From: Cenococcum geophilum 1.58
Taxonomy: Eukaryota; Ascomycota; Dothideomycetes; Gloniales; Gloniaceae
DNA: 64,000 nucleotides
Assembly (NCBI GenBank): GCA_001692895.1
Contig: KV748224.1
Span: forward strand, 744,001 to 808,000
Direction: 5' to 3'
Shown here: in pieces, positions 1-63,900 of the stretch
Position numbering within the stretch: position 1 is the stretch's first letter
How the letters are laid out: every line of letters begins with the position of its first letter
The notes under the pieces: generated by a model
The model's database searches: none
What the model was told of the DNA's origin: nothing
The model's input: the letters and a program-made list of their open reading frames with translations, nothing else
Position numbers and translations under genes: made by a program

Positions 1-1650
1 AATTGTCTTTTACTACTAAAAAAAAAAATATAAAGTCTTCTTTATTGTTATAGATATATATATCTACGCTAGGGTTAAGTATTTAGGTATTTTAGAGTTT
101 ATATAGAATTTAACCTATACTAAATACGGTAGTATTATAGGTTAGTGTAATAGAAGCTAGCGTTTTAGAATTAAAATTAATTATAGATAGTATAGATTAT
201 ATATTCTTCTTTACTTCCTATTTTTTTTTAATTAATTATAGGTTTAACCCAATATTTAAATAAGGCCATTTTGTCTATTTTTTTCTCTAAACATCCAGGT
301 TTGGTTTTAATCCTTAAGGGCGCTTCTGCTTAATAATATAGTAGCAGTCGCTATATTAATGTTTGAGGCCATATAAGTATTATTTATACCATTTAGAATT
401 GGAATTTGAGTTACTTTAAAGGGTTATAAATGCGGAGTTATTGGCGGTAGTAGCAGAGGATGCTGTTTGCTGTATACGGTAGTGCTCTTTAAATTTTTTA
501 ATTAAATCAATAATAAGAAGTATAGCTTTATCCTTCTATTCTCTCCTAATAAAGTTTACTTTTAGTGCTCCTGTAAAGCTAAAAGCAATGGGCCTAATTG
601 TCTAAATGAAGTTATAATATAGTCTAAATCCCTATATATCTGGAAACTCTAATTATTTAGCAAGTTTATAGGTGTTTCTCTAGCTATTTAACTATTTACT
701 AATGTTCTGCTTTTTATTATAAGTCTTAAGAGCTATATATTAAACAAGAATATTATACTTTTAACCTAAGGTAATTAAGGCTAGTATATACTTTAATGAC
801 TAAAGCCGTTTATATACTATATTAAGGCTATTAATAAGGGGAAGGCAGGCTATTAATATAGTACGAATAATATAGTTACTAGTATCACTTATAGCTTATT
901 TCTACTTTTAGTATACCTATAGATTGTCCTTATATTTAGTATAGAGTTAATTATAGGCTATAAACTATTATTAGTTTAGGTTAGAAACCATTATAGCTAT
1001 AAATAGTACGTTTGTTAATATAGGTCATTTCGGCGGTTTAAGCTTTAGAAGGTCGTATTTCTTCTTTAATAGGTCGACATACACTATACCTTATTAGTTT
1101 TAGCTGTGCCTTATATAATAAAGAACTATAGTATTTAATTAGATGGCTTATTAAGGATAATATTGATTTTTAATTTATTAGTAGTTATTATTTTCAGAAT
1201 TTAATAGGTTAGGCAGGGTCTAATTAGCGTCTCAGCGTAAACTTTATTTTAACATTCTAAGCTTTTAATTTAATTTATCGGTTTGTTCGTCAGTCGGGCT
1301 TATACGCTTAGCTTAATCGTATATTCGTTTAATAGGTAAAGGAGCTTAAGACACTGCAAAGGTGATTAATGTAGTTTGGAAGGCTTTTTAAATGAGGTAG
1401 TAATTGCTTAATAGATAGTGCAGCTGGTAGTGCGACCCGGGCTCATAACTGTAAGCTTTATAGTGTAGTGAAGAATTGTGTAAGTGACTTGATTATGAAT
1501 GTAGCTCTAGAGCTTCTATATATATACGAGAAAAGGCGTAGGTAATAAGATAAAAAGGGGGGGTTAAATATATAGCTAAAACGGAGTAATATATAAGCGA
1601 GATAGGGTGGCTTTGTAGCAGAGGCTAGTAGTCAATAGCGCTTTAGTAGA
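1..1650. other. AT-rich RIP-degraded DNA, no gene recognised
   Basis: Very rich in TA dinucleotides, with stops in all frames and no long ORF. Short stretches read like decayed protein code but match no family I can name. The part after about 1440 is probably the 5' non-coding region of the adjoining dead transposon. Confidence 0.6.
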
Positions 1651-4545: not shown

Positions 4546-4862
4546 AGCGGGTATAGTGACTTAAGTGTGTGGGGGAATCAGAGCATAATATTAGAACTAT
4601 CATGTACTTCAACTGAGTGGCACTATCTTGAACATATAAACCCCATGGTTCGGTCAAGCCGCTTCGCCCCCAACACCTCACCGCCCTGCCGACAGCCTTT
4701 TGTGGGTATACAATGATTCTATCAGGATTGGCACTAAGGTAACACATAAATATCACTGTAAGATCGGAACCCCGGAACTCGGTCGCCCCCCGAACTCGAT
4801 TACCACACCAAAATCAACTCTCCCACTTGCCCACCTATTTTCTACACCACCAATCGTTCAAT
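4546..4862. other. Intergenic, probable promoter side of the GTP cyclohydrolase gene
   Basis: Normal base composition; no conserved ORF recognised. It lies upstream of the minus-strand cyclohydrolase and directly upstream of the plus-strand transposase remnant. No clear regulatory motif was seen. Confidence 0.35.
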
Positions 4863-6440
4863 ATGGATCAAAAGGGGCAGAACCTACAAATGGCTATCAC
4901 TGATATTAATGCCGGCAAATTTGAATCTGGTACTCAAGCTACATGAGCGTACAGTGTCCTCAGTCGACTTTTTACAATAACACAAGTAGCAAGCAGCTAC
5001 AACAAATTGCTTACTAGTATAAACAGCGATTGACTTCTATATAAGAAGACTTTCTTACCAATTGGGTGCTTAAATAAGATCTATAAGGATTTGGCCCATT
5101 ATATACCCAACTGTAAGAAATGGCGGCTTAAATAATTAATTAAAATTGTAATATTAAGCTTCTTAGAAAATGATAGGTCTCTAGCTACCTATAATACAAT
5201 CCTTAAATTAAATCTTTAAATAGTTAACTAATAAAGGCCGCTGGAGCTAATAGAGCATAATATGGGCAAATTTAAGAGATTTACGATTTTTTATAAAGGG
5301 TGCAAAAGGTAAATAGTATATAAGTAAAAAAATAGCTGGAATATAGACAAATTTAGTATTATATTAGGTATATATAGAAATTTAATAAAACTAGGAAATA
5401 TATTAAAAAAGATAACTCAAATATAATTACCTAAAGATTGTAAATAGGTATCTATTATAGAGGTAATCTTAATACTTAGCCAATTAACTTGGCCTCTAGT
5501 AATCTTTAAAGGAAAGTATATCTAATTAAGCTAGTTTTATTATAATAAGATGCCCAATTAGATATATACAATCTCTAAAAATAATTAAATAGCTAATTAT
5601 ATTATATTTAATTGGCTTACTAAAGCCCTTTTATTTAAAACGAAACCACCTAGTAATAAAGCTTAATTATTTATTCTTAATAGCTATAAAAGCCACCATA
5701 CTATAGAATTTCTATATAAATACAAGATTAATAATATATTGCTTATCTTCCTTCCTACTTATTTAATATATATTCTATAACCCGTAGATTTATTGTACTT
5801 TTGCCCAATTACATTAAAATATTAAGAGCAGATTACTAGGCTTATATATATTAATAATACAGCCCTAATTAAAAAATACCGCTTTATTAAGTATTACTAT
5901 AAGGTATAGGAGGAAGGCCTTACCGCAAGAATAATTAAATCTAGGTGACACGCGTTTAGTATTTACCCCTAAAACCTATATAAAGGTCTTAAATCCTTAT
6001 AGGTTAGAAGAAAAATTTAATAGAGGCTTTAAGCATTTAATAACCTAAAATTAATTAATTTAATATTCTTACTACCCTAGCAAAACCACGTAATATATAT
6101 GATATAATTTAGGGCCCTTACATTAAGTATGTACCTAACTAGAAGACAAAGGCACTTTTATAAAAAGTAGCTTAACAATGAAATAACTTACTGCAGATAT
6201 TATATATAAGGAGGCTTAAATATATAGCTTACAATTACAGTTTAAGGACCTTAAGGGCTTAAAAAGATATAAGCTAGTGGCTATAGATCTAAATATAAAG
6301 TTTATAAATATAGATTTAATTAAGGAAGCTATAGGTAAGGCAGAGAAGGAAGAGGTATATATAAAGGTAAAGGAGATAAAATCATGACTTGAAAGAGTGT
6401 CTGCTTAAAAGGCCAAGGCTAATATATTTAAATATATATA
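4863..6440 (+). pseudogene. RIP-degraded transposase with psq-type HTH N-terminus
   Basis: An ATG at 4863 opens a short frame (MDQKGQNLQMAITDINAGKF) that matches the start of fungal pogo-type transposases with an HTH_psq DNA-binding domain, then hits a stop. Traces of the next segment follow (QRLTS, then EDFLTNWVL and a GFGPLYTQ stretch near 5030-5120), as expected for the CENP-B-type half. The central DDE region is too decayed to read. A Lys/Glu-rich tail of the kind seen at the C-terminus of these transposases appears at about 6180-6430. Dead by stops and loss of frame; probably a second Tc1/pogo-family element. Confidence 0.6.
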
Positions 6441-7332
6441 TATAGAGGTGATTAACCTCGATCAATTAAGTGTAGATAGCTTAATTTGATGTAGTAACCG
6501 ATTAGGTTAGGTATCTAAGTTTAGGGGTTAACCAAGTTCCAGAGGTCTAATCTTATCTATAGTTCTTAGCAGTTAAGCATTAAATTACCTACTTTCCTAA
6601 TCTAGAGGCTATAACCAGATACAGGTTATTAGTAATTAAATGTCCTATAGATACTTTAAATTAATAAAAGTAATACTATTTATGGGCTTATTATTTTAGC
6701 TAATATATATAACACTATATACAATATTATAGTAATGATTTATATATAGCTGCAGTTATATTAAGTCTAGCTAATTAATTAGCTATAAAATATTTAAAAG
6801 CCTTTATAGGCTTAATTTTTTTCTTTTTTTATATTATATTAAAATAGGTTAATTTATACCTATTTATTTAATTAATATATATAATTATAGTATAAAGTAT
6901 ATAAAAATAATATAGAGGATTTATAAAGGCTTAAGTTTAAGATATATATTAAGTACTCTTTTATATAACTTAAAGTAATAATATTTAATAAATCTAAATA
7001 TATTCTCAATTCTAAAATATACGAAAAAAATATAACTTTATAAAATCTTTAATTATTATATGAATAGCATTTTTTAAAAACTATAGGACCTAATTATTTA
7101 TATATTAATTAGTTTAGGAGTAGTCCGCGTAGGCCTAGCAGGGATCCGAATCGGACGTTAAGCAAATAATAACAACAATAATAATAATAAGCTTATTTAA
7201 AGGTTTAACCTATTAAAATAAAAATAACTTTCATTTATTAGTTAATAATTTTTTTTATATATACTTAGCTTTAGCTAAATAAGTTAAAGGTAAAGTATAA
7301 TTAAATATATTACTCTATATCTTTATTTACTA
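6441..7332. other. AT-rich DNA with a short microsatellite, no gene
   Basis: Strongly TA-rich with stops in all frames. A run of ATA/ACA trinucleotides lies at about 7165-7190. Base composition changes sharply at about 7333, where the normal-GC block containing the DUF3435 gene begins. Confidence 0.6.
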
Positions 7333-7822
7333 CCTTAAACAATCAGACGGCGACTTGGCCGCCGTTTTTGGCGGTTTGTGACGCCGTTTTCTGAGGCCGA
7401 TTTGCCCCAAAAACCCCTAAAACCTGCGGCTGGTGGCCCGAGCGCTAAGGTTGTCCGGATTGCCTGTATTGGCCTAGCCCAGGCGCAATAATGTCAGCAA
7501 CAGAGCAAGGCACCCTTGGCCTTTTTTAACGCCAAGGTACGCCCAGGTACGCCGCACACTTGCATACCTTCAGACTCCGGCAAACTGTCTTCGCTCCTGT
7601 CACCATTAGGCGCCAAAATGGGCCCCTCTAAATTTGGCTGGCCAGCATACTTAAGATGGCTTCACCCTCGCTCGTCAACCACGAGTAGCTACCCATCTTC
7701 TCTTCTCCCGCTAGACCTGCCTGTTCTGCTTACCGTCCACCTTGCTCGTCTTTAAGCATTCATCGACAGCAGCATCGCACCAACCCTCCTTTCTTTAACA
7801 CATTCGCCGACGACAACGCAAC

Positions 7823-10286
7823 ATGCGACGATACCTGTCAGACAAATACTCTACGTCCGAGGAGAGCGAATACGCAGATTCGAAAACCGACGAAGCTAGT
7901 TCCAGCACAGACTTAACCGACGTCGATACCTGTAGTGACGATGACAGTGATGATCGGGCATGGCTCCTCGCTGACGAAGACCACCCGCCCGAGTACTACC
8001 TCGAACAGCTCAACACGTTTGACGAAGCAGAATATGCGAAGGAGGATTACAAACCTAGCAGTACCCGTCTGCTTGACCGCATTGAAGAGCAGTGGTGCCA
8101 GTAAGCAGCCCGTCTCTTTCCGTTTCCCTGCCGTGTTACACCACCCCAATGGCGCTAACGTGTGGCATAGGTTCTGGGCGTACTTGGGAAAGGACCCTCA
8201 AAAGGCCTATATGACCGTCTCTCTTCGCAATCTCCACAGCTTTTTTGACTGGCTGCTTAATCAACGCCGAGGGAAAGGAGGAAGGAGGCGCCGCGGGACC
8301 AAGGTATCGAGCTCCCTCGGGACATACTGGAAGGTCTACCGCCTCGTATACGAAAGAGCGACTGGTGCGAAGCTCGATGGTCGGTTGAATAGGAACATGC
8401 ACAAGGTGAGCGCATCCCAACTGCTTTAAGATGTTGTATACCCCAGGCTTTGGACGTGACTAATTTTAGGGGTTAGGTGCTTAGAAAGCTGGCCAAGAAG
8501 CATGGCTTAAAGAAGACGGGGCCAGAGAAGCCCTGTATGTATGTGGAGGACCTTACAGAAGTGCTGCGGACGAACCTAATGACGACTGAAAAGAGGTACT
8601 CCCATGGACGCCATAGGATACTACTCCAGCTGTATCTACAACTGGGTGGTTTTACTGCGAATCGGCCCCAAGCCCTCCTTGATCTCTGCTATCGGCATAT
8701 TAGGGTCACGCTACTCCGGGACCCAGAGGGTGGGCCCCACCGTGTTTTACTGGAATTCACATTTGAATTTACGAAGGAGTACCTTGGTGTGAAAGATATG
8801 TGGGTTCTTAAAGTTCCATCCTTTCCTTTCAGTTGCTACCATTTATAACGTTATAAAATAAGTACTAATGCTTACCTGCTAACTAGAAATACCTTCCCTA
8901 TCCCTGAAATTATCTACGACCCGTCCCTTAGCTTTAGCCCTCATGTCTTCCTTCTCGGTCTCCTTTTCGCTGATCGGGCGTTCGCAGCATACAACCTCAC
9001 ATCTCCCGAGGAGCTGAGCAAGCTCTACATTGAGCCAGGTCGCAATGAGCTACCGTTGCGGCTGAATCGGAAACTAGACGATATTCCCGTGTTCCGCCGG
9101 TCAGTGAGGACTCTAAATGGCTGGACCATTTCTCCTAACGAACCTCTTCCATACTCTACCCTTGCACCCTGGACCAAAGGGCTCGGGGAGATCACTGGCT
9201 TTGCTCAGGTCTCTCGCCCATATTCGCTTAGATATGGTGCCGGAAAGGCATTTAACGAGAATGGTAAGCTCCGTTGCGACCGGCCTTTCTATTAGAGCAC
9301 TAAAGAGAAATATAGGCAACGTCAGCGAGGCCATGCAAAACCTGATGATGCAGCATGCCGATATACGAACGTTCTTAAGGCACTACCTGTCGCGACGTAT
9401 CACAGCAGACACACAGGCGATCATCCGAGGCCTCCAGCCCCAAGACGCATTGATGCGGGCCGCTTGTACCATGAGCCGTTCGATCGATCCTCGACGACCA
9501 CGGCGGCTTACAACAGAACAATCTTCATCAGTTAACGATCATCCTACTATCCGTTCTCTGCTCAAGCAAAGAGAGCAACTTAAATGCCGTCTTAAAGGCA
9601 AAGCTACGAAACATCCAAAGTATAAGGCGCTCAATGGCGAAATCAACAAGGAAAGGCAACGCCAGCGGCATGTACTTCTTAAAGATGTCAAGGAGACCTG
9701 GGAACAGGAGCAACCAGTGCGTGATGTTGAACTGCAGCTTGCCGGCGTTCAAGTCAAGGCGGAGGCTAGGGTGACAACGGATCCCTACGAGGGCATGCTA
9801 TCAGAACAGAAGGAATTAGTTGATGCGGTCGTCAGCCTGCCAGGTACCACATTTGAAGAGGAGATTCGTCGACGCGACAGGGCCATTCGTGCGGTTATGC
9901 AATACTGCAAGGTTGAGGAAGGTGGAATGTACCCTGCCGCTTCCAAACTTTGCAAACGATCTAGCGGTCGTGCAACACCAGTTAAGACGATGGATGAGGC
10001 CAAGATTGACTCTCGAGTTGAAGCCTTGGAAGCAGCCAGAGTGTCAGTATACAGTGAGAAGAGGCCGAAGATATGTTTCCTTTGTCTAGGCAACGAAAAC
10101 CTGCCGATCAAACAGCGCATATATTCGTTTCATACCCCAGGTGATCTCAGCAAACACTTCAAGCGGAAGCACCTTGCGAATATTAGGGAAGGGGAAAAGA
10201 TCCAATGCAACCTCTGTCAGGTTGTTTTGGCGCACAAGATGCACCTGCAACGGCATGCCGACGATGTACACGGTACGGTCTCGTAG
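7823..10286 (+). CDS. DUF3435 tyrosine recombinase (Starship-captain family) with two C2H2 zinc fingers
   Basis: Predicted site-specific tyrosine recombinase. DUF3435 proteins act as the captain of Starship transposons in fungi and also occur alone. Model: join(7823..8100,8171..8405,8477..8799,8887..9263,9316..10286), 727 residues; all four introns (70, 71, 87 and 52 bp) have GT/AG ends and keep frame. The N-terminus is acidic and Ser-rich (residues 1-75). The DUF3435 core follows from about 85 to 470. Candidate catalytic residues are Arg234 (TANRPQALL), Arg394 (PYSLRYGAG), His418 (MMQHADIRTF) and Tyr428 (FLRHYL), so the active site looks complete. Two zinc fingers close the protein: Cys658/Cys661 with paired His, and Cys702/Cys705 with paired His. 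The reading frame is intact, with no RIP stops. It sits at the left edge of a 16-kb normal-GC block and points into it, as a captain would, but no element ends were proved. Confidence 0.85.
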
Positions 10287-23497: not shown

Positions 23498-23765
23498 CAC
23501 AGTAGGAGCACCCATGATGAAGGGAGCACCCACAATGGGGAGTACTCCCGATAGTGAGGAGTACCCACGACAATGAGGAGTACCCACGACAATGAGGAGT
23601 ACCACAACAATGAGGAGTACCCACGACAATGAGGAGTACCCACGACAATGAGGGGTACCCACGACAATGAGGAGTACCCGCGATTGAGGGGAGTGCCCAC
23701 GGTAACAGGGACTACCCATGATGTTAGGGAGTACCCACAATGGTGAGTACCCATGATAGTTGGGA
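23498..23765. repeat. Minisatellite, unit about 19-20 bp
   Basis: About thirteen copies of GAGGAGTACCCACGACAAT and variants in tandem. The central copies are almost identical and the outer ones diverged, as usual for slippage-driven arrays. Three open frames across it are artefacts of the repeat. It lies immediately upstream of the piggyBac remnant. Confidence 0.9.
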
Positions 23766-25660: not shown

Positions 25661-26436
25661 ATTGCAAATTGCCACTATATTCTACAATATATAGACTACG
25701 TAACGTTACCCTTCAAAGTATAAGTCCTTTCGCTAAGGGAGTAAGCTGCTAGATAAATTTTAATCCCGTGACAAGATAGATTATATAATTTAATTAGCGC
25801 AGTTTAGCTAGGAGTGGGCTAATATAGGGCTAGCGGCCCTGCACATCTAACAGGAATTTATTATTATTATTAACACCCCCCTAATACACCAAGTGGCGTG
25901 TCAGAATAGTATAAATGGTATTCTATACGGTCCTCCTATCCTATAAAGCTAATTTTATGCGAAATGCAGTATGCAATGTGGGTGCTTTATGAGATTCTAA
26001 TAAAACCTCAGCTTGGTTTAGCGTCATTCGCAACCAAGCCCCACCAAATCGGGAAAGCAACTTCACTACACCTATCTCTTAAACCACGATATCTTCCACT
26101 ACGCTACTTATATTGCAATGTGGACAAATTTTTAGGCTATTTTAAATTGTTTTTACATATAAACATCGCAAATTAGATCCTGACCCTAAGCCTGGTTTTG
26201 GCCTTTATAATATACCGCACAATACAGTTTTAGTAGATTAATAACCTCCGCATTCCCCCCCTTTATAGCCCACGTCAGCGGCGTCCAACTATTATTATCC
26301 TTAGAGTCTAGCTAAGAGCCATTCTTAAGAAGTAGCTCAACAGCTCTCTTATTTCCTTTCTCTGTAGCCCTTAATAGTGGTGTCTAGTCATTCCCTTAAT
26401 AAGGAGATATTTATATTAATAGGATTTACTTATATA

Positions 26437-28174
26437 CTATAGCAGTAAAGGAGGGCAGCGTTAGCCATTAATTTTAATACGGACCTACTTAGCTTAGGCT
26501 AGATTCACTTACAAACTATAGCAGTAAAGGGGGGCAGCATTAGCTATCAATTTCAACACGGACCTACTCGGCCTAGGCTAGATTTACTTACCTCCTATAG
26601 TAGTGAAGGAGGGCAGCGTTAGCTATTAATTTCAACATAGACCTACTCAGCCTAGGCTAGATTTACTTACTCTCTATAGCAGTAAAGGAGGGCAGTATTA
26701 GCTATTAATTTTAACATAGACCTACTCGGCCTAGGCTGGATTTACTTATAAGCTATAGTAGTAAAGGAGGGCAGCGTCAGCTATTAATTTTAATATAAAC
26801 CTACTCGGCCTAGTCTAAATTCACTTACTCTTTATAGCAGTAAAGGAGGGCAGCATTAACTATCAATTTTAATACGGACCTACTCGGCCTAGTCTAGATT
26901 CACTTACTCTCTATAGTAGTAAAGGAGGGTAGCGTCAGCCATCAATTTTAACACAGACCTGCTCAGCCTAGGCTAGATTCACTTACTCTCTATAGCAGTG
27001 AAGGAGGGCAGCGTTAGCTATTAATTTTAACACAGACCTGCTTGGCCTAGGCTAGATTTACTTACAAGCTATAGCAGTAAAGGAGGGCAGCGTCAGCTAT
27101 CAATTTTAACATAGACCTATTCAGCCTAGGCTAGATTTACTTACTCTCTATAGCAGTAAAGGAGGGTAGCGTTAGCTATTAATTTCAATATAGACCTGCT
27201 TGGCCTAGGCTAGATTCACTTACAAACTATAGTAGTAAAGGGGGGCAGTATTAGCTATTAATTTTAATATAGACCTGCTCGGCCTAGGCTAGATTTACTT
27301 ACGCCCTATAGCAGTAAAGGAGGGCAGCATTAGCTATTAATTTTAACACGGACCTACTCAGCCTAGGCTGGATTTACTTACAAACTATAGCAGTAAAGGG
27401 GGGCAGTGTTAGCTATTAATTTCAATACGGACCTACTCGGCCTAGGCTAGATTCACTTATGCCCTATAGCAGTAAAGGAGGGCAGCGTTAGCCATTAATT
27501 TTAATACGGACCTGCTCGGCCTAGGCTAGATTTACTTACACCCTATAGCAGTAAAGGAGGGTAGCGTTAGCTATTAATTTTAATACGGACCTGCTCAGCT
27601 TAGGCTAGATTCACTTACTCTCTATAGTAGTAAAGGAGGGTAGTATTAGCTATTAATTTTAACACGGACCTGCTCGGCCTAGGCTAGATTCACTTATAAA
27701 CTATAGCAGTAAAGGAGGGTAGTATTAGCTATTAATTTTAACACGGACCTGCTTAGCCTAGGCTGGATTTACTTACTCTCTATAGTAGTAAAGGAGGGTA
27801 GCGTCAACTATTAATTTTAATACGGACCTGCTCGGCCTAGGCTAGATTTACTTATAAACTATAGCAGCAAAGGAGAGTAGCGTTAGCTATTAATTTTAAT
27901 ATAAACCTGCTCGGCCTAGGCTAGATTCACTTACGCCCTATAGCAGTAAAGGAGGGCAGCGTTAGCTATTAATTTTAACACAGACCTACTCGGCCTAGGC
28001 TAGATTCACTTACTCTCTATAGCAGTAAAGGGGGGCAGCGTTAGCTATTAATTTTAATACGGACCTACTTAGCCTAGGCTAGATTTACTTACGTCCTATA
28101 GCAGTAAAAGAGGGCAGTATTAGCTATTAATTTTAATACGGACCTGCTTAGCCTAGGCTAGATTTACTTATAAG
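26437..28174 (-). repeat. Array of 22 intron-like 79-bp units (NLR copy A, array 1)
   Basis: Exactly 22 x 79 bp with no indel. Read on the NLR gene's strand, each unit begins GTAAGTGAATC, has GCTAAC or GCTGAC about 23 nt before the end, a pyrimidine-rich GCTGCCCTCCTTTACTG stretch, and ends CTATAG: 76 nt with every spliceosomal signal. The remaining three bases between TAG and the next GTAAGT vary: TTT, AGA, GAG, GGC, CTT, GGT, GAC, TAT. Differences inside the 76 nt are almost all RIP-type transitions. The array lies between two ankyrin exons. Confidence 0.92.
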
Positions 28175-28414
28175 CTTATACCAGTATTCCACCTTAACAT
28201 AGTTATAAAGTAACAGCTATATTACCTCCATATTCCCTCCCTCTATAGCCCACGTTAGTGGCGTCCAACTATTATTATCCTTAGAGTCTGGCTAAGAGCT
28301 ATTTTTAAGAAGCAGCTTAACAGCTCTCTTATTTCCTTTCTCTATAGCCCTCAATAGTAGTATCTAGTCATTTCCTTAATAGGGAGATCTTTATATTCGT
28401 GGGATTTACTTACT
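28172..28414 (-). other. 243-nt ankyrin exon between two intron-unit arrays (copy A)
   Basis: On the minus strand, from AGT at 28414 to CTT at 28172, 81 codons in one frame. After allowing TAA/TAG to be former Gln it gives two ankyrin repeats: one around AEKGNKRAV-LLLKN, one around NNSWTPLTWAIEGGN. The same 243-nt exon recurs at 45592-45834 and 46308-46550 in copy C. Confidence 0.75.
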
Positions 28415-28416
28415 CT

Positions 28417-29038
28417 CTAAAGTAGTAAAGAAGGGCAGCGTTAGCTATTAATTTTAATATGGACCTGCTCGGCCTAGGCTAGATTTACTTACGCCCTATA
28501 GCAGTAAAGGAGGGCAGTATTAGCTATTAATTTTAACACAGACCTACTTAGCCTAGGCTGGATTTACTTACCTCCTATAGCAGTAAAGGAGGGCAGCATT
28601 AGCTATTAATTTTAATACAGACCTGCTTAGCCTAGGCTGGATTTACTTACCTCCTATAGTAGTAAAGGAGGGCAGCATTAGCTATTAATTTTAATACGGA
28701 CCTACTCGGCCTAGGCTAAATTTACTTATAAACTATAGCAGTAAAGGAGGGCAGCATTAGCTATTAATTTTAACACAGACCTGCTCGGCCTAGGCTGGAT
28801 TCACTTACGCCCTATAACAGTAAAGGAGGGCAGCGTTAGCTATTAATTTTAACACGGACCTGCTTAGCCTAGGCTAGATTTACTTACTCTCTATAGCAGT
28901 AAAGGAGGGCAGCGTTAGCTATTAATTTTAACACAGACCTACTCGGCCTAGGCTAGATTTACTTACAAACTATAGCAGTAAAGGGGGGTAATGTTAGCCA
29001 TTAATTTCAACACGGACCTACTTAGATTCACTTATAAG
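28417..29038 (-). repeat. Array of 8 intron-like 79-bp units (NLR copy A, array 2)
   Basis: Eight units, 622 bp; the unit nearest 29020 lacks 10 bp of the AGCCTAGGC stretch. Variable triplets on the gene strand, from high to low coordinate: CTT (exon end), TTT, AGA, GGC, TTT, GAG, GAG, GGC, AGA (exon start). Same splice signals as array 1. Beyond 29040 the ankyrin code continues toward the NACHT domain. Confidence 0.9.
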
Positions 29039-32000
29039 CTTATACCAGTATTCCACCTTAACATAGTTATAAAGTAACAGCTACATTACCTCTATATTCT
29101 CTCTCTCTATTACCTAAGTTAATAGCGTCTATCCGTTTATATCTTTAGAATTCAGTTCTATAGCTTCTAATTTTATCCTTAATAGTACTAAATCAATTCT
29201 AAAATATACTGCGATGTGCAACTTAGAGAAGGACATAACAAATTCTATTAAAGAATTATATCTGCCGATATACCTATAAAGGCTCCATTAACTCTAATAA
29301 CGTTTCTACGGGTCTATAGAAAGATAGGTCTATGCTAATTTAACTAAAGACTCTTCTCTCTTGCTAGAATTTCAAAGGTGGTGGCCCTATCTACTAGCTA
29401 TATAGTCTAACAAAGGATACTATAATATTATTTGTGCTTCGCTGGCCAGAGAGTCTTATTTAGTCCGTGGCAGTAAGTTAACTATAAGGGGCCAAAACAT
29501 AATATATCTAAGGTAGGTACGAGTGATATAGGCCTATCCTTATTTAAGCGTCTGCTTAAAGATCTAGCAACGCTCTATAAAATACTTATATAAAAGTAAA
29601 TAAACTAGACGGACGGTTAAAGTCTCTACATTAATTGTTGCCAGGCCTAGACAATAGCTAAGAAACGTACCCGGATCTTTGAGATTTTCTCAATCCAGGT
29701 CCTCCTTCTCTTCTTTTACGGCAAGTGCGCGAAGAAGCTTATCTACTATAAGAGGCCGTTTAGCCAAATATATTTATATCAAGGTGTTAGTCGCATTAAT
29801 TTTAGTTCTTTTTAAATCCTTAATTCTGCCCATCATTTCGCTAAATGTCTGCGTAAGACTTAGTTGTAAGGAATTTAATCTATCTTTACGACTTACTATC
29901 GTGTCTTCCTTAAAAATGAGGCCGATATAGAGCATAGGTAAAAGAAATCTGCAACGACGTTAATATTTAAAACCCCTTAGCATATAAGACGTTACGAACA
30001 CTCCCTAAAACACCTTTAGAAGTTTCTCAATAATTTTCTCTTTCAACTCGTTGTTTATAATCCCGGGATTGTCTTTTCAATTATCTTCGATTCTCCATTT
30101 AGTAAAGGCCTAAATATCAGCTTTATAAGCTTTAATAGCAATTATAAATAGCTTTGGCAAACTGATACGGTTATTAATAATAGACTAAACGTGCGGACAC
30201 CTAGTATAGATTAAGCGAATAAAGGCTACCTTTAAATAAGCTTAGGTAAAGCGATTTAAAAGCTCCCTTAGACCCTTATACTTGTCAAGTGCATTAATAC
30301 AGATATACGTTTTAGTAAAAGTATTACAGGCCTTATAAAGCATCTCAGTTATTTGCTCTATTGGAGCTGTTTAGTATTAATACTTGCTCTAAATCTTTTT
30401 AATCCGTTTAGGGATATTAGGCAAGGGCCAGAGAAGTTGTTTTATAATTACGCTAATAAGATTTTCAGTAGTTTGCTGGCTCTAACTCTTAAAGTCCAGA
30501 TATACGCAGGCGACCCCTGTTTTTAGCGGATCCATATAGTACTTTCCTAACTTAAGGTGCTTAATAAGAACGGATCTATACACATTAATTAAAGCTCCTT
30601 TTAGAAATTATCTTATATATATTGCTATTGTTTTCCTAGCGCCTAGATCTCCGAGTGTGTAAAGCGTAAAGCCTCCTAACGGGTTTAAACACCATATTAA
30701 GAATTTATCTAGCAGTACTATGCTAGTATTAGGTACTTTATAAGCTTTATAAACGTCTTTATACCTTTTTCAAGGCTCCAGAGGGGAAAGCTACTTAAAA
30801 AGTGCTTTATTGTGCTGGACTAGCGTATCTTTAAAATTTAGTAAACTAAACTAAAGGGTTAAATACCTTCTTAGTGGTGTTTTAACGCATCTAGCCTTTC
30901 TCTAATTAAGTTAATTTTATTTTCCACTACTAAAATATATCTTAGCATACAGAAGGGTAAGAAAAGTTTGGTTAAAGACATAAACTAACTTTTCTCCAGT
31001 TATGCGCAAATAATTGGGGTATTTTCCACCTCCACAGAGGGGAGCTTAAAAAGTAGTTCCTTTGCATACACTAAAGCTATAAGGGAAGCGTAATATTACT
31101 ATTTATTATTCTTACGCCCGTTAGTATAGTTAGAGATCCCCCAGATTACAAGGTAAGGAAAGTTATTTATTAACCTAAATGCCTTTATCTTAATACAGTA
31201 TGCCCCCAATTACTTATAAAGTTTATCTCTCTATTTCTTGTTCTTTATAATATAATTACTAGACGCAATAATGCTATGGTGAATTTCTAGATCCGGGAAA
31301 CATGAATTTAGTATTGCTTTACATTTAGGACAGAGTTTATCCTCTTAAGGCTTAGGATCCATCTTATACATAGGGTTATTCTTACGGCCTTAGTAGACCC
31401 AATCTTTTGGTTTTTAGAAAGTCCGCTTAGGAAAGTATCTTATAAAGGTATAGATCCTGCTTTTATTAAGAAACTAAAGTCTTTTTAAGGCTCTAACAAC
31501 CTAGATAAGTCCTTTAGCTAGTTAATCTAAGGAACCCTTAATTTTAAATCCGTCCGTTTCCTATTTACCAAAGTTACTCTATACTACGCCGCCTAACTAA
31601 CCTTTAGGCTTACTAACAATAATATTACTAAGTCAAATCTAATAATCGTCACTTGGAATGCCGCCGCCAATTCCAACCATTAGCATATATTATACATTTT
31701 GGAAGCTTTCCGTAAGATTCCTAGTAATAACATAAGCGGGGAGTTCACTGGCTTCGTTAATACACGCTATAATAATATTATATTCTCCAATTGTTCTAAG
31801 AACGTAAGTATTAGTGTCTCTAGGGGCGATTAGCAGGGCTTTATACTTTATATTAAGCATTACAGCAGCTATAGTAGATTTAATAGCGAGTGTAGAGATC
31901 TATCCAATGGTATAATTATTGTGGGTAAGTAAGGCTAGCTACGGAGCAGTTGCCACTGCCATATTTAGTGCTTTGCACTATACTATATAACTACAATTAA

Positions 32001-43870: not shown

Positions 43871-44646
43871 GAGATATATTTTAGTATAACACCCCCCACA
43901 CACCAAGTAGCGTGTCGTAATAGTGTAAATAGTATTCTATACGGTCCTCCAATCCCACAAAGCTAATCTTATACGAAATGCAGCGTATAATATAGGTGCT
44001 TTATGAGATTCTAATAAACCTCAGCTTGGATTAGCGTCGTTCGCGACCGAGCCTCGCTAAATTAGGAAAGCACTATCACCGCACCTATCTTTTAAACCAC
44101 GATATCTTCTACCACGCTGCTTGTATTATAATGCGGATAAATATATCTTGGTTTCTGGGCTGTTTTCAATTGTTTTTGTATATAAATATCGCAAATTAAA
44201 TCCTGACCTAAGCCTAGTTTTGGCCTTCACAATACACTGTTAATTTAGTAGGTTATGGGGCTAAAACTCTGTATATTGCTTATCTTCTATATAGGTGGTA
44301 GTTGAGTTTTTATAGAACTTTGACCGCCGGTCGAAGTTATCTAATTGATCAGATTCTTGCCAAGAAGTTTCTCCTCACAAGTCTTATCACGTGATATCGT
44401 TATAAGCTTGTTCGCTAACACACACCGCATAATATAGTTCTAGTAGATTAATAACCTCCGCATTCCCTCTCTCTATAGCCTACGTCAGCGGCGTCCGACC
44501 TTTATTATCCTTAGAGTCTAGCTAAGAGCTATTCTTAAAAAGTAGCTTAACAGCTCTCTTATTTCCTTTCTTTACAGCCCTTAATAGTAGTATTTAGTCA
44601 TTCCCTTAATAGGGAGATCTTTACGTTAGTAGGATTTGCTTACTCT

Positions 44647-45594
44647 CTAAAGAAGTAAAGAAGGGCAGCGTTAGCTATCAATTTTAACACAGGCCTGCTT
44701 GGCCTAGGCTAGATTTACTTACTTCTTATAGCAGTAAAGGAGGGCAGTGTTAGCTATTAATTTTAATATAGACCTACTCGGCCTAGGCTAGATTCACTTA
44801 CTCTCTATAATAGTAAAGGAGGGTAGTATTAGCTATTAATTTTAACACGGACCTGCTCGGCCTAGGCTAGATTTACTTACTAACTATAGCAGTAAAGGAG
44901 GGCGGCGTCAGCTATTAATTTCAACACGGACCTGCTTAGCCTAGGCTGGATTTACTTACTCCCTATAGTAGTAAAGGAGGGTAGCGTTAGCTATTAATTT
45001 TAATACGGACCTACTTGGCCTAGGCTAGATTCACTTACAAACTATAGCAGTAAAGGAGGGCAGCGTTAGCTATTAATTTTAACACGGACCTGCTTAGCCT
45101 AGGCTAGATTCACTTACAAACTATAACAGTAAAGGAGGGTAGCGTCAGCTATTAATTTTAACACGGACTTGCTCGGCCTAGGCTAAATTCACTTACAAAC
45201 TATAGCAGTAAAGGAGGGTAGTATTAGCTATTAATTTTAACACGGACCTGCCTAGCCTAGGCTAGATTCACTTACTCTCTATACCAGTAAAGGAGGGTAG
45301 CGTTAGCCATTAATTTTAATACAGACCTGCTTGGCCTAGGCTAGATTCACTTATAAACTATAATAGTAAAGGAGGGCAGCGTTAGCTATTAATTTTAATA
45401 TAAACCTGCTCGGCCTAGGCTAGATTCACTTACAAACTATAGTAGTAAAGGAGGGTAGTATTAGCCATTAATTTTAACACAGACCTGCTCGGCCTAGGCT
45501 AGATTTACTTATAAACTATAGTAGTGAAGAAGGGCAGCATTAGCTATTAATTTCAATAAAGACCTACTCGGCCTAGGCTAAATTTACTTATAAG
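44647..45594 (-). repeat. Array of 12 intron-like 79-bp units (NLR copy C, array 1)
   Basis: 948 bp, exactly 12 x 79. Same unit and signals as in copy A. Triplets include AGA, GAA, TTA, GGA, TTT and CTT. The lower end keeps AGA next to the exon and the upper end CTT, as in every array here. Confidence 0.9.
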
Positions 45595-45834
45595 CCTATA
45601 CCAGTATTCTACCTTAACATAGTTATAAAGTAACAGCTATATCACCTCCACGTTCCCTCCCTCTATAGCCTACGTTAGCGGCGTCTAACTATTATTATCC
45701 TTAGAGTCTAGCTAAGAGCTATTCTTAAGAAGCAGCTTAATAGCTCTTTTATTTCCTTTCTCTGCAGCCCTTAATAGTAGTATCTAGTCATTCCCTTAAT
45801 AGGGAGATCTTTACGTTGGTGGGATTTGCTTACT
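45592..45834 (-). other. 243-nt ankyrin exon (copy C, module 1)
   Basis: Same exon as 28172-28414, from AGT at 45834 to CTT at 45592. It retains one CAA where copy A has TAA, which supports the reading that the stops are RIP products of Gln codons. Confidence 0.75.
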
Positions 45835-45836
45835 CT

Positions 45837-46310
45837 CTAGAGAAGTAAAAAAGGGCAGTATTAGCCATCAATTTCAATATAGGCCTGCTCGGCCTAGGCT
45901 AGATTTACTTACAAACTATAGCAGTAAAGGAGAGCAGCGTTAGCTATTAATTTTAACACGGACCTACTCAGCCTAGGCTAAATTTACTTACAAACTATAG
46001 CAGTGAAGGAGGGCAGCGTTAGCTATTAATTTTAACACAGACCTGCTTAGCCTAGGCTAGATTTACTTACTCTCTATAGTAGTAAAGGAGGGCGGCGTTA
46101 GCTATTAATTTTAATACGGACCTACTCGGCCTAGGCTAGATTTACTTACTCTCTATAGTAGTAAAGGAGGGTAGTGTTAGCTATTAATTTTAACACGGAC
46201 CTACTCGGCCTAGACTAGATTCACTTATTCTCTATAGTAGTAAAGGAGGGTAGCGTTAGCTATTAATTTTAATACGGACCTGCTCGGCCTAGGCTAGATT
46301 CACTTACAAG
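45837..46310 (-). repeat. Array of 6 intron-like 79-bp units (NLR copy C, array 2)
   Basis: 474 bp, exactly 6 x 79, flanked on both sides by the 243-nt ankyrin exon. Triplets TTT and AGA dominate. Confidence 0.9.
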
Positions 46311-46550
46311 CTTATACTAGTATTCCACCTTAATATAGTTATAAAGTAACAGCTATATTACCTCCACGTTCCCTCCCTCTATAGCCCATATTAGCGGCGT
46401 CTAACCTTTATTATCCTTAGAGTCTGGCTAAGAGCTATTCTTAAGAAGCAGCTTAACAGCTCTCTTATTTCCTTTCTCTATAGCCCTTAATAGTAGTGTC
46501 TAGTTATTCCCTTAATAGGGAGATCTTTACGTTAATAGGATTTGCTTACT
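46308..46550 (-). other. 243-nt ankyrin exon (copy C, module 2)
   Basis: Third complete copy of the exon, 81 codons, AGT at 46550 to CTT at 46308. Differences from the other copies are transitions. Confidence 0.75.
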
Positions 46551-46552
46551 CT

Positions 46553-48208
46553 CTAGAGAAGTAAAGAAAGGTAGCGTTAGCTATTAATTTCAATATAGGC
46601 CTGCTCAGCCTAAGCTAGATTTACTTACTCTCTATAGCAGTGAAGGAGGGCAGCGTTAGCTATTAATTTTAACACGGACCTGCTCGGCCTAGGCTAGATT
46701 TACTTACTCTCTATAACAGTAAAGGAGGGCAGCGTCAGCTATTAATTTCAACACGGACCTACTTAGCTTAGGCTAGATTCACTTACTTCCTATAGCAGTA
46801 AAGGAGGGCAGCGTTAGCTATTAATTTCAATACAGACCTGCTCGGCCTAGGCTGGATTTACTTACTTCCTATAGTAGTGAAGGAGGGCAGTGTTAGCTAT
46901 CATTTTAACACGGACCTGCTCGGCCTAGCTGGATTTACTTACTCTCTATAGCAGTAAAGAGGGCAGCGTTAGCTATTAATTTTAACATAAACCTGCTTGG
47001 CCTAGGCTAGATTTACTTATAAACTATAGCAGTAAAGGAGGGCAGCGTTAGCTATTAATTTTAATACGGACCTGCTCGGCCTAGGCTAGATTCACTTACT
47101 CTCTATAGCAGTAAAGGAGGGCAGCATTAGCTATTAATTTTAACACGGACCTACTTAGCCTAGGCTAGATTCACTTATAAACTATAGTAGTAAAGGAGGG
47201 CAGCGTTAGCTATCAATTTTAACACGGACCTACTCGGCCTAGGCTAGATTTACTTACTAACTATAGTAGTGAAGGAGGGCAGTGTTAGCTATTAATTTCA
47301 ACACGGACCTGCTTGGCCTAGGCTAGATTTACTTACTCTCTATAGCAGTGAAGGAGGGCAGCGTTAGCTATTAATTTCAATATAAACCTACTCGGCTTAG
47401 GCTAGATTTACTTACAAACTATAGTAGTAAAGGAGAGCAGCGTTAGCTATTAATTTTAATATAGACCTACTCAGCCTAGGCTAGATTTACTTACTTCCTA
47501 TAGCAGTAAAGGAAAGCAGTATTAGTTATTAATTTCAACATAGACCTACTCGGCCTAGGCTGGATTTACTTACTTCCTATAGTAGTAAAGGAGGGCAGCG
47601 TTAGCTATTAACTTTAACACGGACCTGCTCGGCCTAGGCTAGATTTACTTACTAACTATAGCAGTAAAGGAGGGCAGTATTAGCTATTAATTTTAACACA
47701 GACCTGCTTAGCCTAGGCTAGATTCACTTACTTTCTATAACAGTGAAGGAGGGCAGCGTTAGCTATTAATTTTAACACGGACCTACTTGGCCTAGGCTAG
47801 ATTTACTTACTCCCTATAGCAGTAAAGGAGGGTAGTATTAGCTATCAATTTTAATACAGACCTACTCGGCCTAGGCTAGATTTACTTACTCCCTATAGTA
47901 GTAAAGGAGGGCAGTATTAGCTATTAATTTTAATACAGACCTACTTAGCCTAGGCTGGATTTACTTACAAACTATAGCAGTAAAGAAGGGCAGCGTTAGC
48001 TATTAATTTTAATATAGGCCTACTTAGCCTAGGCTGGATTTACTTACTCTCTATAGTAGTAAAGGAGGGCAGTATTAGCTATTAATTTTAATACGGACCT
48101 GCTTAGCCTAGGCTAGATTTACTTACTCTCTATAGCAGTAAAGGAGGGCAGCGTTAGCTATTAATTTTAACACAGACCTATTTGGCCTAGGCTAGATTTA
48201 CCTATAAC
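46553..48208 (-). repeat. Array of 21 intron-like 79-bp units (NLR copy C, array 3)
   Basis: 1656 bp, 21 units with three single-base or two-base losses clustered at about 46900-46960. Triplets include AGA, TTA, GAA, TTT, GGA and GAG. The upper end (48206) shows GTT instead of CTT. Confidence 0.88.
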
Positions 48209-60900: not shown

Positions 60901-63900
60901 AGATATTGGCCGTCTGGTAAAAAGGCGACCGCGTAGACGGTGCTTAAATAGCCTTTAAGCGTGCCGCGGCAAGACCCCGTCGCCGCCTCCTATAGCCGGA
61001 TGGTGTTGTTCTATAACGCTAACGCTACCAGCTAGCCGTTTGGCGAGAAGGCGACCGCGTAGACGGAGCTTAAATGGCCTTTAAGCGTGCTATGGCAAGA
61101 CCCCGTCGCCGCCTTCCATAGCCGGACGGTCTAGTTTCTACGACGCTGACGCTACCAGCTAGCCGTCCGGCGAGAAGGCGACCGCGTAGACGGAGCTCGA
61201 ATAGCCTTTGAGCGTGCTGCGGCAAGACCCCGTCGCTGCCTCCCCACAACCAGACGGTGGTCGTTATTTGACGCTGACGCTACTAGCTGGCCGTCCGGCG
61301 AGAAGGCGACCGCGTGGATGGTGCTTAAATGGCCTTTGAGCGTGCTGCGGCAAGACCCGTCACCGCCTCCCATAGCCAGACGGTGTCGTCCCACGACGCT
61401 AACGCTACTAGCTGGCCGTCCGGCGAGAAGGCGACCGCGTTAACGGAGCCTAAATGGCCTTTGAGCGTGCTGCGGCAAGACCCTATTCGCCGCCTCCCCA
61501 TAACCAGACAGTGTTATTATACGACGCTGACGCTACTAGCTAGCCGTCCGGCGAGAAGGCGACCGCGTAGACGGAGGTCGAATGACCTTTAAGCGTACTG
61601 CGGTAGACCCGTCGCCGCCTCCTACAGCCAGACGGTGTTATTATTTGACGCTAACGCTACCAGCTGGCCGTCCGGCGAAAAGGCGACCGCGCTAACATAG
61701 CTCGAATAGCCTTCAAGCGTACTACAGTAAGACCCCGTCGCCGCCTCCCACAGCCAGATAGTCCTGTCATTTGACGCTAACGCTACTAGCTAGGCCGTCC
61801 GGCGAGAAGGCGACCGCGTAGACGGTGCTTAAATGGCCTTTAAGCGTACTGCGGCAAGACCCCGTCACCGCCTCCTATAGCCGGACGGTGTTGTTATTTA
61901 ACGCTGACACTACTAGCTAGCCGTCCGGCGAGAAGGCGACCGCGCTAACGTAGCTTAAATGGCCTTCAAGCGTGCTGCAGCAAGACCCCATCGCCGCCTC
62001 CTATAACTAGACGGTTCTGTTATCCGACGCTAACGCTACTAGCTAGCCGTCCGGCGAGAAGGCGATCGCGCTGACGTAGCTCGAATGGCCTTTAAGCGTG
62101 CTGCGGTAAGACCCTATCGCCGCCTCCTATAACCGGACGGTCCTATTATTTAACGCTAACGCTACCAGCTAGCCGTTTAGCAAGAAGGCGACCGCGTTAA
62201 CGGAGCCCAAATGGCCTTCGAGCATGCTGCGGCAAGACCCCGTCGCCGCCTCCCACAGCCAGACGGTATTGTTATTTGACGCTAATACTACCAGCTAGCC
62301 GTCCGGCGAGAAGGTGACTGCGTAGACGGAGGTTAAATGACCTTTAAGCGTGCTGCGGCAAGACTCCGTCGCCGCCTCCCATAGCCGGACGGTCCTATTA
62401 TCTGACGCTAACGCTACTAACCGGCCGTCCGGCAAGAAGGCGACCGCGCTAATAGATCCCGAATGGCCTTCGAGCGTGCTGCGGCAAGACCCCGTCGCCG
62501 CCTCCTATAGCTAGGCGGTGTCGTCCCACGACGCTAACGCTACCAGCCGGCCGTCCGGCGAGAAGGCGACTGCGCTAACAGATCTTAAATGGCCTTTAAG
62601 TGTGCTGCGGCAAGCGTTCTAATCCCTTTCCACTTTTAATAGCCTATTAATCCAACCTGGAATATAGTTATTAAATTTTTTCTATATTACGCTTATCTCT
62701 AGAGTAAAGATAAGAGCTAAAGAGTATAGTTATAGAGATGCGTTTTCGAGTATCGTTTAATTTCTTAGAATAAAGCGCTTTGTATTGTAAAGAAAGCCAA
62801 ATATTTTAGCGCTTTACTCTAACTATATAATAAGTAAGTATAAAGTATCGTAACTAATAGAGTAACTAAGAGATATCTTATATGTATAAGTGATTATAAG
62901 CTATTAATTATATAAATGCCTTTTAATACTTCTCTAATAAGGCTTATAGCTTCTAGCCAGTAAAGAAAGAGCTTCTATAGAAACTCGTATACTGTATCGT
63001 CATCACAGATATGGCTTTAACTCTGCTCTAAGTGGTATACCCAATATCGGTAGGTATATTGGACTTCGGGTAGTAAACAGTCCGCTATACTCTATTTATT
63101 AATCTCGCTTCTTAGAGTTTTAGGCATTAGGAGGTTGTATATGTTTTACTTTAGACCCTTTAAGCTAGATATTAGTTAAAGACACTTGCCGGCTAGCGTC
63201 TTATACGTTCCTTTTCTATTTACCCAATATAGGCTCTTTCCACGCTTTCTAGGATCGATGAGGAAGTTATAAAAAGAAAGGTATAGGAGCCTTACGGGCA
63301 CATTCTTGTTAATAGGGATGTTAAGAATAGAATATAGTAAGTCTAGCCTGCACGTAATATCCTCTTTAGACATCTGGAGGAGGTGTGCAAGTAAAGTTAT
63401 AGAGAGAGGACTCTTTAAAATAACGATACTCCCAACTATTTCTCTAAATTTAATAATCCGCCTTTACTTATCTACTTTGTCTTTATTATTAAATAACTGG
63501 TTTAGGATAGGGAGGTACGTCCTATTAAGCTTCGAAATATAGTGTGCTATTTAATATTGAAGTATAGTAGCTAAGCGCTCTTTAGGATTATCTCGCTGAT
63601 CTCTAATATATCAACAGGCCATAGTAGTAAAGATAAACAATGGAACAGCTAGCTTAACTAGCGCCTAGATTTAGTCCTTACTAGGCCAGCCTAGGGACAG
63701 TAAGCGCTGCTCTTGTACCACCTTAAGCTTATACTCTAAGAAGAGAGCTATATTGTATTCAATCGTTTCCTTTAGTATATTATAAAGAATCAGGTTCTGG
63801 TATATTCCGTCTAATATCTTCTTAAAGCCAAGATAAATAGGGAGCTCCGGTCTGCTTGTTATAAAGACCTATAACAATACTGGCTTAAGACCCTTAGTTC

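Follow-up and report, generated by a model that had tools for sequence, protein, structure and literature searches.

Tandem near-identical introns spaced by variable triplets in NACHT-ankyrin and HET-domain genes of Cenococcum geophilum

Described systems of codon-sized exons, variable repeats and neighbouring introns

Codon-sized exons are already on record for fungi. In the nank (NACHT-ankyrin) genes of Tuber melanosporum, tens of codon-sized (3-bp) microexons were reported, with diversification by alternative splicing (Iotti et al. 2012, doi 10.1016/j.funbio.2011.11.009, as cited in PMC4986451, PMC3689799 and PMC10197012). A single microexon was described in Trichoderma by a paper that also cites Iotti 2012 (PMC11121469). 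In the case of Podospora NLRs, the WD40 repeats of the NWD family undergo concerted evolution, and few positions per repeat are under diversifying selection (PMC4986451). An expansion of HET and NACHT genes was described for Cenococcum geophilum itself (PMC5023957).

We analysed a stretch of 64,000 nucleotides of C. geophilum 1.58, here called the window (C49:744001-808000, in a genome of 177.2 Mb and 162 contigs). Its arrays resembled the T. melanosporum genes as cited, both in the NACHT-ankyrin host (gene A) and in the tens of putative in-frame 3-bp exons (69 in the window). Because codon-sized microexons of nank genes were already published, the window arrays belong to a described kind. This meant that the novelty suggested in a preliminary description of this DNA, where no such arrangement was known from an immune-receptor gene, did not stand. 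Compared with the nank genes as cited, the apparent differences were the tandem near-identical introns, the fast-changing triplets and the presence of HET genes at 10 of 13 further loci scanned. The phospholipase family PF09056, known from Tuber borchii, had no match in this genome, a weak sign that the arrays belong to another genus. The Podospora NWD genes, as described in the source, are likewise recognition genes with hypervariable repeats. However, their variable positions lie within a contiguous coding repeat, whereas here every variable codon would form a separate exon and the conserved portion of each repeat is an intron.

Two kinds of intron were also compared. Fungal introner-like elements, as presented in PMC4457414, are similar in being near-identical complete introns in many copies, but the introns here were tandem, lay in recognition loci wherever a host was found, and seemed to have no general hairpin. 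The stwintrons of Hypoxylaceae, as presented in PMC8469720, are similar as complex neighbouring introns. In contrast, the units here adjoined with 3 nt between them, each had full signals, and no intron interrupted the splice signal of another, so that the stwintron-like splicing raised in the preliminary description was not supported. In the available text of open-licence papers, we found no account of such arrays in HET-domain genes, nor of tandem near-identical introns around codon exons. The HET hosts, the exon with a putative start codon and the contrast between triplet and intron seem to be new.

Arrays and NACHT-ankyrin genes in the window

Tandem 79-bp arrays were located at 26423-29022 (32.8 copies) and 44633-48201 (45.1 copies), with ankyrin exons inside both spans. 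They contained 69 junctions of the form CTATAG-NNN-GTAAGT in five blocks, all on the minus strand and belonging to two RIP-damaged genes. Array A had 30 junctions (8+22) and array C had 39 (21+6+12). These counts agreed with the 22 and 8 units, and the three further arrays in copy C, that had been noticed before. At each junction, CTATAG or a one-letter variant (TAG-ending or close) was followed by 3 nt and then by GTAAGT, ATAAGT or GTAAGC. The step between junctions was 79 nt within the blocks, apart from one step of 78 and one of 77. A unit consisted of a 76-nt intron and 3 nt, and the intron carried a donor, a branch site (GCTAAC or GCTGAC), a pyrimidine tract and TAG. The earlier proposal that 76 of the 79 bases form a complete intron was confirmed, as were the coordinates and signals given with it. 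The variability of the remaining triplet, its phase and the HET-domain genes with like arrays had escaped the preliminary description. The triplets differed from unit to unit in both arrays (TTT, AGA, GGC, GAG, CTT, GAC, GGT and TAT in A; AGA, TTT, GGA, GAA, TTA and AAA in C). Two other tandem repeats were observed in the window. One had a 19-bp unit, ACAATGAGGAGTACCCACG, at 23532-23683, with an apparent RIP-altered relative on the minus strand of locus L026 (about 4820-5060), and the other had a 126-bp unit at 60922-62614 (13.4 copies).

Gene A was a damaged NACHT-ankyrin gene, with a NACHT-type domain upstream of the array and ankyrin exons between and after its blocks. The domain (NPHP3_N, Pfam PF24883, E 1.6e-7 with stops read as X) was located 5' of the array at 30242..30574 on the minus strand, as were all of the following features. 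Block 1 of array A, with 8 triplets between introns (28414..29037), was closed by a 50-nt intron, GTAAGT...ACTAG (28364..28413). It was followed by an ankyrin exon of 192 nt, or 64 codons, in phase 0 at both ends (28172..28363; Ank_4, 3.2e-10). Block 2 had 22 triplets between 76-nt introns (26434..28171) and a closing intron of 50 nt with the donor ATAAGT (26384..26433), and the terminal ankyrin exon lay at 26190..26383 (3' limit approximate; Ank_2, 6.8e-10). In copy C, block 1 had 21 triplets (46550..48201, 5' limit approximate) and preceded a 192-nt ankyrin exon in phase 0 (46308..46499; Ank_2, 3.3e-11). Block 2, with 6 triplets (45834..46307), preceded another 192-nt exon in phase 0 (45592..45783; Ank_4, 2e-9), and block 3 had 12 triplets (44644..45591). 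Gene A was an NLR-type gene, as had been proposed, and the RIP damage was also borne out.

Each of the five exons tested matched a Pfam ankyrin model, with best E values from 3.3e-11 to 2e-9; in copy C and at the related locus L021, the tests covered the ankyrin exons only. All four internal ankyrin exons, three in the window and one at L021, were 192 nt long and codon-bounded on both sides. They opened at the TPL position of the ankyrin repeat, after an intron of 50-53 nt, and ran up to the next array donor without splitting a codon. Because these exons were codon-bounded at both ends, the introns were in phase 0 and the 3-nt spacer was one whole codon. Ankyrin-like matches in long open frames were common in the genome, for example at C9:1834303-1835982, where the matched part had no arrays.

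Both window copies showed RIP damage in the dinucleotide indices and as in-frame stops in the exons. In the pooled arrays, with L022 left out, the donor G had become A at 215 of the 335 sites where it followed T, versus 8 of 302 otherwise. The dinucleotide indices and these donor changes were those of repeat-induced point mutation (C-to-T in CpA context, on both strands). Among the array loci found in this genome, no NACHT-ankyrin gene was intact. The preliminary description had looked to an un-RIPed relative of the NLR; un-RIPed loci of the same design were found elsewhere, but in HET genes and not in the NLR itself.

Recurrence in the genome and HET-domain hosts

The design was searched for in the whole genome as a two-junction pattern. 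It gave 720 matches versus 24 for the pattern read backwards, and a stricter form with the 3-nt spacer gave 503 versus 20. Forward matches were far above backward ones, so chance was excluded for the two-junction design. The stricter pattern with a spacer of 2 nt or 6 nt had no match in the genome. A similar pattern had no match in viral contigs and one in prokaryote contigs (L035, 5729-5820 of a Paenimyroides baculatum contig), which was taken as chance. Among the matches listed, the two-junction pattern occurred at about 40 or more places in the genome, as counted by eye. When the unit itself was used as the query, the best matches listed were arrays or several adjoining matches, together with one single match on C12. 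Unit lengths across arrays were 65, 66, 68, 70, 71, 73, 77, 78 and 79 bp, and the introns measured about 62 to 76 nt.

Spacer length was recorded in 13 arrays. They held 520 donor-like sites, 22 of which were read as non-junctions (exon donors, double parses and two outside). The spacer was 3 nt in 495 of the 498 junctions (481 by rule and 14 with a variant acceptor), 2 nt in two and unclear in one. The array on C13 (C13:207000-218500) was old and had 98 junctions. Its introns had accumulated transversions and indels, but 3 nt were retained at the junctions that were found; the search pattern demands 3 nt there, and departures would appear as gaps, of which a few were present. Within arrays of one tandem ancestor, the constant length alone was weak evidence for codon exons, because a 3-nt spacer is a small target for indels. 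The array statistics were made without L026, which had two or three units, and L033. Loci L022 (C116) and L023 (C18) were two copies of one segment with triplet series identical apart from transitions, and the frames of L023 that were scanned contained no known domain.

A HET domain (PF06985) was found 3' of the array and on the same strand at 10 of the 13 further loci scanned for domains, namely L024, L025, L027, L028, L029, L030, L031, L036, L037 and C13 (via L040). The 13 loci were those other than L021 (the ankyrin gene), L022, L026 and L033. A HET or other Pfam match was absent from both flanks of L023 and from the 3' sides scanned at L034 and L032 (310 residues in L032), and the 3' exon of L032 resembled that of L025. 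The 5' flanks of L025, L027, L028 and L029 gave no Pfam domain. At L024, 25-bp repeat arrays, and apparently 12-bp ones as well, framed the array and the HET locus in inverted orientation (158-422 and 8623-8882; 1055-1189 and 7862-7990). Similar ORFs were seen at both ends (939-1235, plus strand; 7816-8100, minus strand), in a segment of ~8.7 kb bounded by inverted repeats.

The exons on either side of the array were informative. In L028, L029 and C13, the upstream exon ended in ...TTTATG right at the donor and was followed by more 3-nt exons and then by the array. An ATG was absent at the matching upstream place in L027. In the five HET loci looked at, the exon after the array began in phase 0 and led to the HET domain. 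It read PNGW in L027, PNDW in L028, SND and then a stop in L029, KSW in L037, and TNS and then a stop in C13. With an ATG exon before the array and a phase-0 exon leading to HET after it, the array in these HET genes would encode an N-terminal segment.

The cleanest and intact-looking locus was L037 (C134:26000-32500), which was not RIP-altered by the dinucleotide index. It had 47 junctions with the acceptor TAG, a count that leaves out at least one unit with a weaker donor, and its 5' end lay within a run of N. All of its donors started with GT (GTAAGT 44, GTAAAT 1, GTGAGT 1 and GTATGT 1). The 47 triplets contained no stop, and the locus had an open frame of 388 amino acids with the HET domain (E 4.7e-31) and a further open stretch after it. 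The triplets were of only seven kinds, mostly GAA, CGA and TTT, and translated mainly as Glu, Arg and Phe. Locus L036 (C134:12000-19000) was not RIP-altered either and had 14 junctions. A match to the PD-(D/E)XK nuclease superfamily (PF20516, 5.6e-32) was seen 3' of its HET gene, at about 5373-6675 of the locus.

Triplet variation and readings of the arrays

The variation of triplets and introns was compared. In the window, the introns differed almost only by transitions, whereas the triplets were hypervariable by transversion. Over 58 modal units, transversions per site were 0.38, 0.38 and 0.43 in the triplet versus 0.0008 in the intron interior. A comparison of 16 arrays was also made, in which both copies L022 and L023 were counted and the window row took in some junctions from outside the arrays. 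The rates given above for the window come from the separate 58-unit count. The most transverted column was a triplet column in 14 of the 16 arrays, and all three triplet columns led in 12. The ratio of triplet to intron transversions was at least 20-fold in 15 of the 16 and only about 4-fold in C13. In L023 and its copy L022, the most variable column was inside the intron, and the third triplet column of L024 had no transversion variation. In the case of un-RIPed L036, transversions per site were 0.25-0.5 in the triplet versus 0 in the 12 intron interiors, and its 14 triplets were of nine kinds. We take these results to argue strongly that some influence acts on the triplets that the introns escape, be it diversifying selection on expressed codons, a rewriting process, or both.

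Stop triplets were counted in 15 arrays, with L022 left out. They made up 20 of 637 triplets (TAA 10, TAG 8 and TGA 2), and the un-RIPed L036 and L037 had none in 61. Against column shuffles within arrays, TGA was rarer (2 vs 14.5) and TAA somewhat rarer (10 vs 17), but TAG was not (8 vs 4.3). When each kind was counted once per array, there was no depletion (9 vs 9.2 expected). Between the triplet series of L023 and L022, two of the transitions turned sense triplets into stops, as RIP would. Avoidance of stop codons was considered as proof of coding and rejected, since it was suggestive for TGA only and was gone in the count by kind and array. With TGA rare, stops undepleted per kind and array, and RIP-like stops in the twin locus, stops neither prove nor exclude coding.

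We consider it likely that the arrays consist of spliceosomal introns strung around phase-0 single-codon exons that would encode a hypervariable peptide. Dozens of consecutive 3-nt exons would need stepwise splicing, which is unusual and counts against this reading. An array could instead be one composite intron, in which splicing runs from the first donor to the last acceptor, the triplets never enter the mRNA and unit duplication is the neutral growth of an intronic satellite. The flanking exons were in phase 0 on both sides, and skipping of the whole array would also keep the frame. The 20 stops among 637 triplets, undepleted by kind and array, also fit it. However, spacers that evolve neutrally should change at the pace of the introns, and the excess of transversions in the triplets of 15 of 16 arrays is contrary to this. 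Nor would a composite intron explain why the spacer is limited to 3 nt in families whose introns range from about 62 to 76 nt. We regard the composite intron as unlikely.

A different account is that introner-like elements were inserted repeatedly at adjacent sites and that the triplets are old coding sequence cut codon by codon. A stable intron hairpin is typical of introner-like elements, and folding of the unit had been suggested as a check. Folding of five units gave z values of +1.21, -2.16, +0.70, +0.61 and +0.75. In four cases the folded stretch missed the intron ends by one to a few bases, and three of the units were RIP-altered. Only the un-RIPed L036 unit (-2.16) folded better than most shuffles. 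The other four folded no better than shuffles, and a hairpin seems not to be a general feature of the unit. Insertion would account for near-identical introns with full signals, and fast evolution of the triplets would not be required. However, arrays A and C had like introns but different triplet series with only AGA and TTT common to both, and the seven kinds of triplet in L037 were unlike an ordinary exon. Repeated insertion is therefore very improbable in our judgement.

The single-codon-exon reading is compatible with a third proposal, which concerns the source of the variation. Here a targeted mutation would rewrite the triplet, for example at unit duplication or through an intron-directed conversion that homogenises the intron only. 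The 12 intron interiors of L036, without transversion beside 14 triplets of nine kinds, point in this direction. Triplet and intron variants were also uncorrelated in 25 of 28 tests (14 arrays; L022 and L034 left out). In the other three tests, units with the same triplet were more alike, as plain duplication would give, on the upstream side in L028 (p 0.000) and on the downstream side in L037 (p 0.007) and C13 (p 0.017). Targeted mutation is possible, but we hold it to be doubtful.

If the arrays are chains of single-codon exons, unit-by-unit splicing is predicted to add one amino acid to the protein per unit, and skipping of exons within an array would always keep the frame. In the NACHT-ankyrin genes, full splicing would yield a run of 8, 22, 21, 6 or 12 added residues next to ankyrin repeat pairs. 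The run would sit between such pairs, where a loop would project. In the HET genes, the segment would be N-terminal, shortly after the putative start Met (14 triplets in L036 and 98 in C13). Arrays would lengthen and shorten by unit duplication, with the introns staying alike and the codons turning over much faster. Such introns and codons suggest that the array serves recognition genes as a hypervariable segment. The two copies in the window have since been hit by RIP, which damaged many donors too. A wider proposal is made tentatively, and we would not yet count on it. It holds that a genome-wide system of codon-by-codon diversification joins NACHT-ankyrin and HET genes, that each variable residue in their arrays has an exon to itself, in some HET genes directly from the start codon, that a process aimed at the triplets supplies the codons and spares the introns, and that splice choice yields many in-frame variants of one receptor from a single gene.

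One unusual gene architecture here links two fungal families of allorecognition genes that are otherwise separate. It is a natural system in which the conserved part of a repeat is the intron and the variable part is a single codon. Gene prediction that is blind to 3-nt exons would probably miss such genes. If transcripts agree, dozens of 3-nt exons in succession would spell out parts of proteins, and the arrays would test how intron definition copes with them. They would also offer a source of diversity in immune-type receptors of fungi that could be tested in living strains.
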